Of a stretch of 39,650 nucleotides of DNA, positions 22,071 through 26,508 are shown one piece after another. Origin of the DNA: Bacteroidota bacterium (lineage in GTDB: Bacteria; Bacteroidota; Bacteroidia; NS11-12g; UBA9320). The stretch lies in the NCBI GenBank assembly GCA_018700895.1, contig JABIUV010000032.1, positions 1-39,650 on the forward strand. The letters are read 5' to 3'. The notes under the pieces were generated by a model. The model saw nothing but the letters and a program-made list of their open reading frames with translations. It was not told the origin of the DNA and ran no database searches. The position numbers were made by a program, and so were the translations under genes. Numbering within the stretch: the first letter of the stretch is position 1; each line of letters opens with the position of its first letter.

Positions 22071-22091
22071 AGTCATATAAAATCAAATTTA
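22071..22091 (+). repeat. Direct repeat copy 1 (upstream of the ECF sigma gene)
   Basis: AGTCATATAAAATCAAATTTA lies 19 bases before the sigma factor start. A copy lacking one base (22641-22660) lies directly before the next gene. The shared core TATAAAATCAAATTTA is 16 identical bases. Confidence 0.7.
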
Positions 22092-22110: not shown

Positions 22111-22629
22111 TTGACCTTCGAGCAACTATATAAACTACACACGGACTTGGTGTACAACCTTGCACTCCAGTACGTGCAAAATACTGCGGATGCCGAAGAG
22201 ATAGCTCAAGATGTATTTATGTCTGTTCACAAAAACATGCATAAGTTCAAGGGGAAATCGAGTGTAAAAACATGGATATATCGAATAACGATTAATAAAT
22301 CCCTTGATTTCATAAAAGCAAAGACCAGAACCAAACGAAGTTTTTTTTTCAACTCCAAAAGATTAGACGACCCAGATACGCATATCAATGTATCTGATTT
22401 TGACCACCCGGGAGTTTTGCTCGAGCAAAAAGAGGAGATGAAGAGGATATTTGATTGTATAAATGAATTGCCCGAGCGACAGAAAACTGCTCTAATTTTG
22501 CTAAAAATAGAAAACAAAACACAACAGGAAACTGCTAATATTATGGATTGCACGGTAAAATCCATAGAATCTTTATACCAACGAGCCAAAAATAAATTGA
22601 CCCAAAAATTGGCCGAAACGAAGGAATAA
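22111..22629 (+). CDS. ECF-type RNA polymerase sigma factor
   Basis: This 172-residue sigma-70 ECF protein has region 2 (DLVYNLALQYVQNTADAEEIAQ, WIYRITINKSLDFI) and region 4 with a helix-turn-helix (QQETANIMDCTVKSIESLYQRAK), joined by a charged linker. It starts with TTG at 22111. The gene begins a tightly packed operon whose products are a small membrane protein, a His-rich periplasmic protein and the MbnP/MbnH pair, so it probably directs an envelope metal response. A run of nine T lies in the linker region. The next gene may encode its anti-sigma partner, though no zinc-binding anti-sigma motif is seen. Confidence 0.92.
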   Translation: MTFEQLYKLHTDLVYNLALQYVQNTADAEEIAQDVFMSVHKNMHKFKGKSSVKTWIYRITINKSLDFIKAKTRTKRSFFFNSKRLDDPDTHINVSDFDHPGVLLEQKEEMKRIFDCINELPERQKTALILLKIENKTQQETANIMDCTVKSIESLYQRAKNKLTQKLAETKE

Positions 22630-22640
22630 CGAGTAAACAA

Positions 22641-22660
22641 AGTCTATAAAATCAAATTTA
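22641..22660 (+). repeat. Direct repeat copy 2 (between sigma factor and next gene)
   Basis: AGTCTATAAAATCAAATTTA ends two bases before the ATG at 22662 and matches copy 1 (22071-22091) except for one missing A. The two copies sit upstream of successive genes, 570 bases apart. Confidence 0.7.
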
Positions 22661-22661
22661 A

Positions 22662-22904
22662 ATGGAACTTTTAGATAACATAAAAAAAGTGACTGCCCCC
22701 GATGCCTTATGGCACAAAGTGAATGAGCGAGTACACAAGCAACAAGCCGACATCGTCCCCATGCACAACGTAAGAGCAATAGCTGCTGCAGTAGCGTTAT
22801 TGTTTATTGCTAATGTAGTTTTTGCGGTGCAATGGACTAATACAACAGACGAAGTCAGTTTAGAAGAAATAATCCCAGAGGAAAACTACTCGCTTTATGA
22901 ATAA
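22662..22904 (+). CDS. Small single-helix membrane protein, possible anti-sigma factor
   Basis: This is an 80-residue protein with a charged cytosolic N-terminus (about 1-34), one transmembrane helix (about 37-55, IAAAVALLFIANVVFA) and a short acidic outer tail. It has no recognised domain. Position right after an ECF sigma gene and this topology fit a minimal membrane anti-sigma factor, but it lacks the usual zinc-anti-sigma fold motif. The end overlaps the following gene by eight bases. The function is an inference from context. Confidence 0.75.
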   Translation: MELLDNIKKVTAPDALWHKVNERVHKQQADIVPMHNVRAIAAAVALLFIANVVFAVQWTNTTDEVSLEEIIPEENYSLYE

Positions 22905-23364
22905 GACGAAGTTATACGGAATATTAGCCATCATACTCCTACTAATTAATGTTGCAATGGGAGTCTTCATATTGACTGCCAAGGACAAGCAACCTCCGAT
23001 GAGGGAAAATGGTCCCAAAAAACTAATTATGGAGCGACTTGCTTTTGACAAAGAGCAGAAAAAAGAGTTTAGAGTGATGGTAAGGAATCATCAGGAAAAA
23101 ATGCACGAACATCGCGAGGCACTCATGCAGGCTAAAGTTCATTTGCACCAGCATCTCAAAGGAGATAATCACGCAGATATAGACTCACTTACCACTGCTA
23201 TTGGTCATATACATAGTGAAATGGAGGCACTGCATTACGCCCATTTTCTTGATATCAAAGCTATTTGCAAACCCGAGCAAATGAATAACTATATCTTACT
23301 CGTAGACGACCTCAAAGATATCTTTGAAAAAAGAAGAGCAAAACCAAGACGAAAAGGCCGATGA
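22897..23364 (+). CDS. CpxP/ZraP-like His-rich periplasmic protein with N-terminal anchor
   Basis: This 155-residue protein has an N-terminal transmembrane anchor (about 7-27) and then a highly helical, charged, histidine- and methionine-rich domain (HQEKMHEHREALMQAKVHLHQHL, then IGHIHSEMEALHYAHF). This is the style of the Spy/CpxP/ZraP/CnrX periplasmic metal-sensor or chaperone group. There are at least a dozen His residues. It overlaps the genes on both sides (8 and 4 bases). It may sense metal and control the sigma factor, as CnrX-type proteins do. The family assignment rests on composition and helix pattern, so it is moderate. Confidence 0.75.
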   Translation: MNKTKLYGILAIILLLINVAMGVFILTAKDKQPPMRENGPKKLIMERLAFDKEQKKEFRVMVRNHQEKMHEHREALMQAKVHLHQHLKGDNHADIDSLTTAIGHIHSEMEALHYAHFLDIKAICKPEQMNNYILLVDDLKDIFEKRRAKPRRKGR

Positions 23365-24035
23365 GAACGGCTATCATAATCGTGATAACGTTTCTGAGTA
23401 TCATTCAGAGTATAGCTCAAACCTCTCAAAACAAAAATACTCATAGTCTAAAACTGTTGCCAGTATATAAAGGTGAACCCTCGGAGCCGGACTCTACTTA
23501 TGAAAAGAAATACCACATAGAAAAGCTGCGATTTTACCTATCGGACCTCATCATTTTAAATGAGCAAGACAGTATCGTTTATACGCATCAGGCAAAAAAC
23601 ATACTGATAGATATCGCCAAACCGGAGTCCTTATTAATTTTATTCCAAGATTCATTATTAGTATCTAAAAAGTATAAAATGCAATTTGGTATTGGCGTAG
23701 ACAGCACCACCCACGCACGGGGAGCAATGGAAGGAGATTTAGACCCTGTGAATGACATGTACTGGACGTGGCAAAGTGGCTATATCAACATAAAACTAGA
23801 GGGTAATATTACGCACAACGCGAACAAAGAACAATTTGAATACCACATTGGTGGATACACGGGCAACAGAAACGCTTACAGAAAAATAAGACTACCCTAT
23901 AACGGCAATCTTTTCATTCATCTGGATCAGCTATTATCCCAAATGTTAGGCAAGCAACAACACATTATGAGTCCGGGAAAGGACGCCACCGACTTTGCTG
24001 ACATTTTTGCTAGATGTATGAGTCATACTTTTTGA
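23361..24035 (+). CDS. MbnP-like copper-binding periplasmic protein
   Basis: This 224-residue protein has a signal peptide (about 1-20, ending SIAQ). It contains the MbnP pattern: a beta-strand start (LKLLPVYKG), KLRFYLSDL, GVDS, GDLDPVNDMYWTWQSGYINIKLEG, then FEYHIGGYTG and a late His/Met segment. In MbnP a conserved tryptophan is oxidised to kynurenine by the di-haem enzyme MbnH and helps bind Cu(I). The candidate residues here are Trp135 and Trp137. The next gene is an MbnH-like enzyme overlapping this one, the usual arrangement. Copper binding is inferred from the family. It overlaps the upstream gene by four bases. Confidence 0.82.
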   Translation: MRTAIIIVITFLSIIQSIAQTSQNKNTHSLKLLPVYKGEPSEPDSTYEKKYHIEKLRFYLSDLIILNEQDSIVYTHQAKNILIDIAKPESLLILFQDSLLVSKKYKMQFGIGVDSTTHARGAMEGDLDPVNDMYWTWQSGYINIKLEGNITHNANKEQFEYHIGGYTGNRNAYRKIRLPYNGNLFIHLDQLLSQMLGKQQHIMSPGKDATDFADIFARCMSHTF

Positions 24036-25057
24036 AAAAAACGATTTACATAGCACTAATCTGCTCGTGTATAGCGAGTACCTACATGGCATACGATGTG
24101 CCAGCTCATTTCCCCCTGCCTATTTATGAGCGAGAACTCGCTCAAGCAACTTCAGCAAAAATCGATCTCGGGCGAGCTTTATTCTATGACCCGATCTTAT
24201 CGGCAGATAGCACTATATCTTGTGCTAGTTGCCACTCGCCTTACAATAGCTTTGCCCATACGGACCACGAGGTAAGTCATGGCATACACGACAGTATTGG
24301 AACACGGAATGCTCCCGCTCTATTCAATTTAGCTTGGCAACCCTTGCTGATGTGGGATGGTGCTAGCAATCACCTAGATATGCAAGCTCTTGCTCCTATT
24401 ACCCATCCTGGCGAAATGGCCGAAAGCATAAAACATCTAATGGTGAAACTTAAGCGAAGCACTATTTACACTGCTCTTTTCAAAAAAGCATACGGCATAG
24501 ACACTATCACCAGCCAAAAAATGCTGCAAGCTTTAACGCAGTTTCAATTGAGTTTAATATCGGATCAAGCCAAGTATGACAAAGTAAAACAAGGTAATGA
24601 TACCTTCACTATACAGGAGCAAGCGGGGTATTCACTATTTCAGGCTAAGTGTAATGCGTGCCATACCGAACCACTTTTTAGCAATTACGCGTTTCGTAAC
24701 AATGGTCTATCTCCGGACACAGCTAACTATGACCTAGGTAGATATAGGGTGACAAAACAAACACAAGATAGCTTTCTGTTCAAAGTACCGACCTTGCGTA
24801 ATTTGAGTTACACTTATCCCTACATGCACGACGGACGATTCAGACGACTAAACCAAGTCTTAAATCACTACACCGCTATAGATAATCAAAATGTCCATAT
24901 ATCTCACGAGTTATCATCGGGCGTGAAACTAACATCCAATCAAAAAGCAGATTTAATTGCATTCTTACTTACACTAAATGACAAGTCATTTATACTAAAC
25001 CAAGATAACAAATTTCCAAGATCCATATTACTCCCAACGAAGGAGAATCAGCATTAG
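24014..25057 (+). CDS. MbnH-like di-haem enzyme (MauG/cytochrome c peroxidase family)
   Basis: This 347-residue exported protein has an N-terminal hydrophobic segment (about 10-27) and two CxxCH haem-binding sites, CASCH at 70-74 and CNACH at 213-217. It also has the family features DLGRALFYDPILS, RNAPALFN, FKVPTLRNL and YMHDGRF. MbnH enzymes belong to this family and oxidise a tryptophan of the partner MbnP to kynurenine. Classic cytochrome c peroxidase is the alternative, but the preceding MbnP-like gene supports MbnH. The ATG at 24014 overlaps the mbnP-like gene by 22 bases. A TTG at 24032 would give a four-base overlap and a cleaner signal peptide. Confidence 0.88.
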   Translation: MYESYFLKKTIYIALICSCIASTYMAYDVPAHFPLPIYERELAQATSAKIDLGRALFYDPILSADSTISCASCHSPYNSFAHTDHEVSHGIHDSIGTRNAPALFNLAWQPLLMWDGASNHLDMQALAPITHPGEMAESIKHLMVKLKRSTIYTALFKKAYGIDTITSQKMLQALTQFQLSLISDQAKYDKVKQGNDTFTIQEQAGYSLFQAKCNACHTEPLFSNYAFRNNGLSPDTANYDLGRYRVTKQTQDSFLFKVPTLRNLSYTYPYMHDGRFRRLNQVLNHYTAIDNQNVHISHELSSGVKLTSNQKADLIAFLLTLNDKSFILNQDNKFPRSILLPTKENQH

Positions 25058-25085
25058 AACGTCAAAAGAACTAAAATCCTATAAA

Positions 25086-26447
25086 ATGAGAAAAACATCA
25101 ATACTCGTACTCATACTTGCCAGCACATTTGCCAAGGCACAGCTGAGTCCAGCTATCACCTCTTGGCTACAAAACACAACCGAAACGGGAACCTACTACC
25201 CAAAAGGCAACACAACACTTACCGAAAATAACATCTTGGTAAACTGCCAAAAAGTAGAATACTCAGACGAATATGTGTACGTCACGGCTACGGGAATACC
25301 TGCGTATCCAACAGGGCCATTTTCTGACGGAAACCCGAGTAACGCCGAAAACCAAAGTGGTATATACCAAATCCCACTTAGCCCAACCAAAAACGAAGGA
25401 ACACCAGACGCAACCACAGGAAATAACATTGGGATTTTTATAAACGGTGTAGCTCTATTTGACTATAGAGATGGCGTAGCTTGGAACCCTACGACCAATG
25501 CTCTTTGCGGCGGACCGGGCAATCCTCCTTGTCCTGGCGGACCAGGTACCTTACAAGACTGGAACAGAGATGCCATCCCTGCAGAGATGGGCGGTTTTGA
25601 CTGTGCGAAAGGACACCCTGCCAAGGGCAACTATCATCACCACCAAAATCCATCCGCTTTCAAACTAGACAAAGATGTCTTATCTGACATTTGCAACCTG
25701 TATGATGCGGAAGGGTTGTATGCTATAGATGCAGAATCACATTCTCCGCTTATAGGATACGCGTATGATGGGTTTCCGATATACGGTGCTTATGGCTACG
25801 CCAAAAAAGATGGCTCCAGCGGTATCACACGCATAAAATCTGGCTATCATCTTAGAAACATAACAGCACGGACTACGCACGCAGATGGGAGTTCGGTAGA
25901 CGATGGCCCAGATGTGGGTGCCACTTACTTCTTAGGCTATTTCAGAGAAGATTATGAGTTTGTTGCTTCTACAGATGAAGATGTACTAGATGAGCACAAT
26001 GGCCGATTTTGTGTGACGCCTGAATATCCCGACGGCACGTATGCCTACTTCTGCACGGTAGATGAGAATTGGAATTCAGCTTATCCGTATGCCGTGGGTC
26101 CAACATTCTATGGTAGCAGAGAAGACAGGAAGGTAACTAGCGTAAATGAAACCACAACAGTATATACACCGAGTACTAATGCAGTAGATGTATTAGGTCA
26201 AGCAAGTATCCATATTTACCCAAATCCTGCAAGTGACTTAATCGCCATACAGCTAGGTGGACTTACCCGCTCTGAGGTAAAAATCACCTTGACAGATATG
26301 GATGGTAAAGAAATAAGTACCACCTCTATCCCAAAAGGCAGTACGATTGCATATTATGATGTACAAGCGGTATATGAAGGCACGTATATCCTACGCTTTG
26401 AGGATGGAGTAAGTACCATTACCAAAAAGGTTAGCATAAAACGATAG
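25086..26447 (+). CDS. YHYH-domain secreted protein with T9SS sorting domain
   Basis: This 453-residue protein has a signal peptide (about 1-19, ending AKAQ) and a YHYH-type domain. Its motif is KGNYHHHQNPSAF, followed by YAYDGFPIYGAYGYA and an FCVTPEYPDGTYAYF segment. A Pro/Gly/Cys loop (CGGPGNPPCPGGPG) precedes it. The C-terminus, from HIYPNPASD, is a type A T9SS domain, so the product goes to the cell surface. It follows the MbnH-like gene by 28 bases and ends at a terminator, so it is the last gene of the sigma-MbnP/MbnH operon. The YHYH domain has no settled function. The clustered His and the operon suggest metal or copper contact. Confidence 0.88.
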   Translation: MRKTSILVLILASTFAKAQLSPAITSWLQNTTETGTYYPKGNTTLTENNILVNCQKVEYSDEYVYVTATGIPAYPTGPFSDGNPSNAENQSGIYQIPLSPTKNEGTPDATTGNNIGIFINGVALFDYRDGVAWNPTTNALCGGPGNPPCPGGPGTLQDWNRDAIPAEMGGFDCAKGHPAKGNYHHHQNPSAFKLDKDVLSDICNLYDAEGLYAIDAESHSPLIGYAYDGFPIYGAYGYAKKDGSSGITRIKSGYHLRNITARTTHADGSSVDDGPDVGATYFLGYFREDYEFVASTDEDVLDEHNGRFCVTPEYPDGTYAYFCTVDENWNSAYPYAVGPTFYGSREDRKVTSVNETTTVYTPSTNAVDVLGQASIHIYPNPASDLIAIQLGGLTRSEVKITLTDMDGKEISTTSIPKGSTIAYYDVQAVYEGTYILRFEDGVSTITKKVSIKR

Positions 26448-26471
26448 ATTGGCTTTCGCATTTTGCTACGG

Positions 26472-26502
26472 AACCACTTTGCGTATGCGAGGTGGTTTTT
26501 TT
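26472..26502 (+). terminator. Terminator of the sigma-MbnP/MbnH-YHYH operon
   Basis: AACCACTT pairs with AGGTGGTT (one G-T wobble) around a TGCGTATGCG loop and is followed by a T-run. It lies 25 bases after the YHYH stop codon. Confidence 0.8.
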
Positions 26503-26508
26503 GTGGGT

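Follow-up and report, generated by a model that had tools for sequence, protein, structure and literature searches.

The 39,650-nucleotide contig JABIUV010000032.1 of a Bacteroidota bacterium (hereafter, the window) carries, at positions 22111-26447, a conserved six-gene operon that combines the copper-related protein pair MbnP and MbnH with a sigma-factor circuit of its own and with a surface-sorted YHYH-domain protein. The six open reading frames all lie on the forward strand, as described in a first-pass annotation of the sequence, and are closely packed, with neighbours overlapping by 4-22 nt or separated by no more than 32 nt (+32, -8, -4, -22, and +28 nt in the order from sigma factor to YHYH gene). 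The reading put forward here, that the operon encodes a metal-inducible surface copper-handling system, was judged to be about evenly poised between right and wrong.

A search of Bacteroidota genomes bore out the predicted conservation of the gene order in relatives. The full six-gene order recurred within the same genus and family, and the gene order was found across Bacteroidota as well as in Ignavibacteriota and Kapaibacteria; its occurrence in many genomes places it far beyond chance. With a YHYH profile, 80 genome loci were found, 67 of which had enough upstream DNA. Because these loci were the best YHYH matches, the counts describe this YHYH clade rather than the whole family. MbnP and MbnH were encoded nearby in 61 of the 67 testable loci, with MbnP, MbnH, and YHYH genes directly adjacent in 51, and the median MbnP-MbnH gap was -4 nt. 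An extracytoplasmic function (ECF) sigma factor occupied the same place upstream of this triad in relatives, and the entire cassette of sigma factor, one-helix protein, and sensor preceded MbnP in 25 of 55 testable loci. In an even phylum-wide sample of 198 genomes, 23 genomes contained YHYH and 51 contained MbnP. The whole six-gene order was present, besides the window, in two further families of this sample (loci L143 and L146). Cultivated type strains with relatives were Neolewinella persica and N. agarilytica (L057, L060).

The MbnP-MbnH pair

The secreted protein encoded at 23361-24035 scored 115.1 bits against Pfam family PF20243 (gathering cut-off 27; 4.9e-33). Against the NCBIfam equivalog model TIGR04052 (MbnP_like_WxW) it scored 32.8 bits and, since the cut-off of 140 was not reached, it was classified as a Pfam-level member of the MbnP family and not as a TIGR04052 equivalog. 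Neither phmmer nor an 18-sequence profile found the protein in the PDB; a fold search succeeded. The AlphaFold model (pLDDT 91.7, 48 sequences) matched 7l6g, the MbnP of Methylosinus trichosporium, with a Foldseek E-value of 2e-6 and a VIA Z-score of 16.1 over 197 residues (rmsd 3.2). This was the sole strong fold match, the next entry having a Z-score of 3.8. These results placed the protein firmly inside the MbnP family, where the first-pass annotation had put it.

W135 and W137, which form the WxW motif in MYWTWQSGY, and H162 were invariant in 54 of 54 MbnP relatives, while M203 was conserved in 49 of these. Through a paralogue profile, the motif lined up with the WNW of 7l6g in a weak alignment. 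In work of Manesis from 2021, MbnH of M. trichosporium reportedly converts the first Trp of WxW to kynurenine, with Cu(I) bound by a His and a Met. By homology, conversion of W135 to kynurenine is likely, and H162 and M203 are candidate Cu(I)-site residues. The MSP motif that holds M203 was absent from most TonB-receptor-linked MbnP paralogues. No MbnP relative was found in plasmid sequences. To our knowledge, kynurenine copper sites have so far been shown only in methanotroph proteins.

The next gene (24014-25057) encodes a di-haem enzyme with the haem motifs CASCH and CNACH in a CCP_MauG fold (PF03150, 1e-51). Both motifs were present in 49 of 49 relatives and, together with Tyr286 at the axial position and Gln124, Pro128, and Glu134, were conserved in 47-49 of these 49; the Gln-Pro-Glu spacing is typical of MauG. 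Scores of 196.2 bits against TIGR04039 (cut-off 362.85) and 192.4 bits against the MauG model TIGR03791 (cut-off 443.85) remained below both thresholds, and the protein is therefore called MbnH-type and not an equivalog. In single-sequence phmmer searches its best matches were peroxidases, as would be expected if it were an ordinary H2O2-removing cytochrome c peroxidase and MbnP an incidental neighbour. A profile search, however, ranked 6e1c first (211 bits, with peroxidases at approximately 199 and MauG at 155), which is the MbnH of M. trichosporium (the PDB record is titled 'di-heme enzyme'). Moreover, Tyr286 aligned with a Tyr of 6e1c and with a Met of the peroxidases 1iqc and 3o5c and stood in place of the peroxidase Met ligand in 49 of 49 relatives, and the enzyme's gene overlapped or abutted MbnP in nearly all loci. 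A simple peroxidase role is therefore largely refuted and appears highly improbable. The identities of MbnP and MbnH and the conservation of the operon were considered firm.

In a tree of MbnH sequences, made with a quick method and with some long branches, all 55 YHYH-linked rows fell on one side of a single branch (SH-aLRT 99). Nineteen other MbnH rows stood apart from this clade, including a TonB-linked second copy from the window genome. This second MbnP-MbnH pair (locus L045, G000:C46:7439-12714) lies in a cluster with the order TonB receptor, HMA/MauE fusion, MbnP, MbnH, and HMA protein, which is a more familiar copper-type setting.

The nearest known counterpart of the pair is MbnH/MbnP of M. 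trichosporium OB3b (TIGR04039/TIGR04052, the 'metallo-mystery pair'; PDB 6e1c and 7l6g). Shared features are the MbnP fold, the WxW motif, and a paired di-haem enzyme with a Tyr ligand, encoded by overlapping genes. In contrast, identity over the MbnP fold is only approximately 12%, both NCBIfam cut-offs were missed, the MbnH belongs to a clade apart from the TonB-linked copy of its own genome, and the operon has its own sigma circuit and a YHYH partner instead of methanobactin genes or a TonB receptor. No member of the MbnB family (MbnB_TglH_ChrH, PF05114) was found in the whole genome, which is 100% complete. This absence of a methanobactin synthase gene indicates that methanobactin is not involved, in agreement with the first-pass proposal of a system without it. 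Elsewhere, MbnPH-like genes occur among copper genes (PMC9426467).

The sigma-sensor trio

The first three genes encode an ECF sigma factor of 172 amino acids with a TTG start (22111-22629; TIGR02937, 6.8e-32; Sigma70_r2, 5e-18; r4_2), a one-helix membrane protein of 80 amino acids (22662-22904), and a membrane-anchored, His-rich periplasmic protein (22897-23364). The circuit itself had been predicted correctly, but its sensor had been labelled CpxP/ZraP-like, and the CnrYXH/NccYXH systems of Cupriavidus offered a better fit than ZraP. The anchored protein matched PF13801 (Metal_resist) at 1.4e-5, with a score just below the cut-off, and a profile of 29 sensors matched Spy (2e-5), NccX (3.5e-5, along its entire sequence with the membrane anchor included), and CnrX (1e-3), members of the same superfamily. 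The trio shares with CnrYXH/NccYXH the adjacency of an ECF sigma factor (here in a CnrH-like position), a protein with a single transmembrane helix, and an anchored Metal_resist sensor homologous to NccX/CnrX. It differs in gene order (sigma, anti-sigma, sensor) and in its proposed target, MbnPH-YHYH instead of an RND pump.

The one-helix protein has approximately 40 residues inside, followed by one transmembrane helix, and its relatives end in LY(x)E. It matched no Pfam family, no solved structure, and not the CnrY sequence, and NCBIfam anti-sigma models matched only weakly (E 0.002). Its CnrY-like topology and its position make it a putative anti-sigma factor. In the sensor, conserved candidate ligands were H65 (27 of 29 relatives), H116 (20 of 29), and C124 (24 of 29). 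The CnrX ligand set, which includes Met123, was not retained in full, and H65 and C124 were new conserved candidates. With Met123 lost and C124 gained, the protein may act like CnrX but is no Ni/Co CnrX.

The TTG start of the sigma gene was kept at the aligned position in 12 of 43 sigma genes, across genera of one sub-lineage (relatives with this start include L033, L037, L039, L040, L042-L044, L051, and L127). It may perhaps hold sigma levels low.

In CnrYXH, binding of metal to CnrX releases the sigma factor (PMC7689651). By analogy, the anchored sensor would bind periplasmic metal and, once metal-bound, would make the one-helix protein free the ECF sigma factor, which would then transcribe its own operon. 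Since metal switches on sensors of the CnrX type, induction would be expected when metal is available, not under scarcity.

This expectation bears on the metal acquisition role suggested in the first pass, under which the operon would be on at low copper and MbnP and YHYH would scavenge surface copper. MopE/SACCP and CorA/CorB of methanotrophs, surface-exported kynurenine Cu(I) proteins that are paired with a di-haem protein and are copper-repressed (PMC3912023), offer a precedent for such a role, and the surface sorting of YHYH would also suit it. The likeness to these systems lies in the combination of a di-haem protein with a predicted kynurenine Cu(I) partner. MbnP shows no marked sequence similarity to MopE/CorA (PMC3621798), and no CnrYXH-type circuit has been reported with the copper-repressed MopE/CorA. 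In addition to the metal-activated circuit, the operon contains neither a TonB receptor nor an importer, whereas the second MbnPH pair of the genome adjoins a TonB receptor and thus looks more like an acquisition version. Acquisition under copper scarcity was not supported and is considered unlikely.

The YHYH protein and the proposed metal pathway

The last gene (25086-26447) encodes a protein with a signal peptide, a YHYH domain (PF14240, 2.5e-56; 191 bits, cut-off 25), and a C-terminal sorting domain of the type IX secretion system (T9SS; Por_Secre_tail, PF18962, 4e-12). The family name given at first reading holds, although the motif itself reads YHHH in the window protein. D172, H177, H184, H186, D228, and D302 were conserved in the YHYH family, including all far members examined, and this universal Asp/His cluster is likely a metal site. 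While keeping the D...H...YHxH...D core of the domain, the MbnPH-linked clade has YHHH as its motif and two additional histidines, H219 and H304; its members are approximately 450 amino acids long, carry the T9SS tail, and mostly adjoin MbnPH. Literature searches on YHYH together with MbnP found no paper on a link.

Several additional YHYH arrangements were observed. In Neolewinella and Lewinella (L057, L060, L065), the operon holds one or two short YHYH paralogues, placed either between MbnP and MbnH or ahead of MbnH; in L057 a DUF6702 protein accompanies them. Some tandem pairs of YHYH genes occurred (L055, L071, L074, L080, L117, L128), and in L144 MbnPH-like genes flank YHYH on both sides.

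The first-pass suggestion that YHYH is a metal donor or a further MbnH substrate found no support. The family is broad, has a metal-like Asp/His site, and occurs without MbnPH. Direct adjacency to MbnPH in 51 of 67 loci would suit a second MbnH substrate or kynurenine cuproprotein, as would W133, which was conserved at 0.96 in linked YHYH proteins and absent from far unlinked ones. However, conservation of W133 was still 0.71 among near YHYH genes that have no MbnPH at their locus, and W159, the sole universal Trp, was kept in 0.8 of far YHYH proteins and is therefore probably structural. Since YHYH moreover exits the periplasm through the T9SS, a substrate role appears very unlikely.

According to the reading of a metal-inducible surface copper-handling system, MbnH would oxidise W135 of MbnP to kynurenine, which with H162 and probably M203 would form a Cu(I) site. 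MbnP would then serve as a copper buffer of the periplasm or outer envelope and would hand the metal to, or protect, the T9SS-exported YHYH metalloprotein. Copper as the sensed metal and its hand-over to YHYH are guesses, and rather doubtful ones. It is less probable still that the linked-clade YHYH proteins are copper enzymes of the cell surface that make up a class of their own, new to science, and need MbnP/MbnH as a kynurenine-based chaperone pair, with copper handed over before T9SS export or a YHYH Trp oxidised directly. Operons of relatives include T9SS multicopper oxidases (L042-44, L051, L085, L097, L128) and also hold a redoxin, sulfatases, or a second, short YHYH gene, and in L133 a row of YHYH, multicopper oxidase, redoxin, and sulfatase genes occurs without MbnPH. 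These neighbours hint that YHYH groups with exported metalloenzymes.

Several observations weigh against a copper-handling role. In the sensor, H116 is retained as the equivalent of CnrX H119 but the Met123 position is not Met; the set of H65, H116, and C124 is compatible with either Cu(I) or Zn(II). The AlphaFold model of YHYH was poor (pLDDT 58, 52 sequences). In the 198-genome sample, only approximately 5 of 16 full-length YHYH genes adjoined MbnP, and YHYH was widespread without MbnPH. No multicopper oxidase of the Cu-oxidase_3 type is present in the window genome, which rules out a client enzyme of this type encoded elsewhere in it, and this link to copper comes only from relatives. Finally, a published analysis predicted YHYH to be a Zn-dependent hydrolase (PMC7824862).

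The hydrolase prediction and the CnrX-like sensing would also fit an envelope defence against metal stress, in which MbnP sequesters excess Cu(I) and YHYH is a co-induced Zn-dependent hydrolase that remodels damaged surface polymers. In L150, a cassette of sigma factor, one-helix protein, sensor, and LTXXQ protein precedes a different, shorter YHYH gene without MbnPH, which indicates that YHYH by itself can be under the control of the sensor module; the same type of cassette controls a T9SS phosphoesterase in L042/L043, and sulfatases recur as neighbours. Within the operon, however, there is no efflux pump or CopA, and linkage as tight as that of MbnP, MbnH, and YHYH points to something beyond co-induction. 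Defence of this kind was considered improbable.

Operon borders and biological meaning

The operon is closed by an intrinsic terminator hairpin with a U tract (26466-26506, forward strand), as first proposed. Its 12-bp stem and U7 tract had a folding energy of -21.2 kcal/mol (z -3.7), matched by none of 200 shuffles; a consensus terminator scan missed this element, which was detected by folding. A 16-bp repeat, TATAAAATCAAATTTA, lies before the sigma gene (22076-22091, forward strand), with an exact copy before the anti-sigma gene (22645-22660), and is a candidate promoter or leader element. No more than these two exact matches occurred in the window and none of 100 shuffles reached two with up to 2 mismatches allowed, for a motif that was picked after inspection. 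The repeat was absent ahead of the sigma genes in the upstream regions of relatives that were inspected.

Upstream, the operon is flanked by an HgmA-like dioxygenase gene and a split YedE-type transporter, and downstream by a low-molecular-weight phosphatase-like gene, none of them with an evident metal role. In three loci of the same genus (L032, L033, L039), a VTC-DUF4956-DUF2490-CotH block lies immediately upstream of the operon and takes the place of the YedE pair beside the HgmA-like gene.

The operon represents a phylum-wide, regulated, and methanobactin-free setting for MbnPH with a fixed third partner, and ties what would be an enzyme-made copper site to YHYH, a domain of unknown function. 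The operon's composition suggests a dedicated copper-handling system that is independent of methanobactin.

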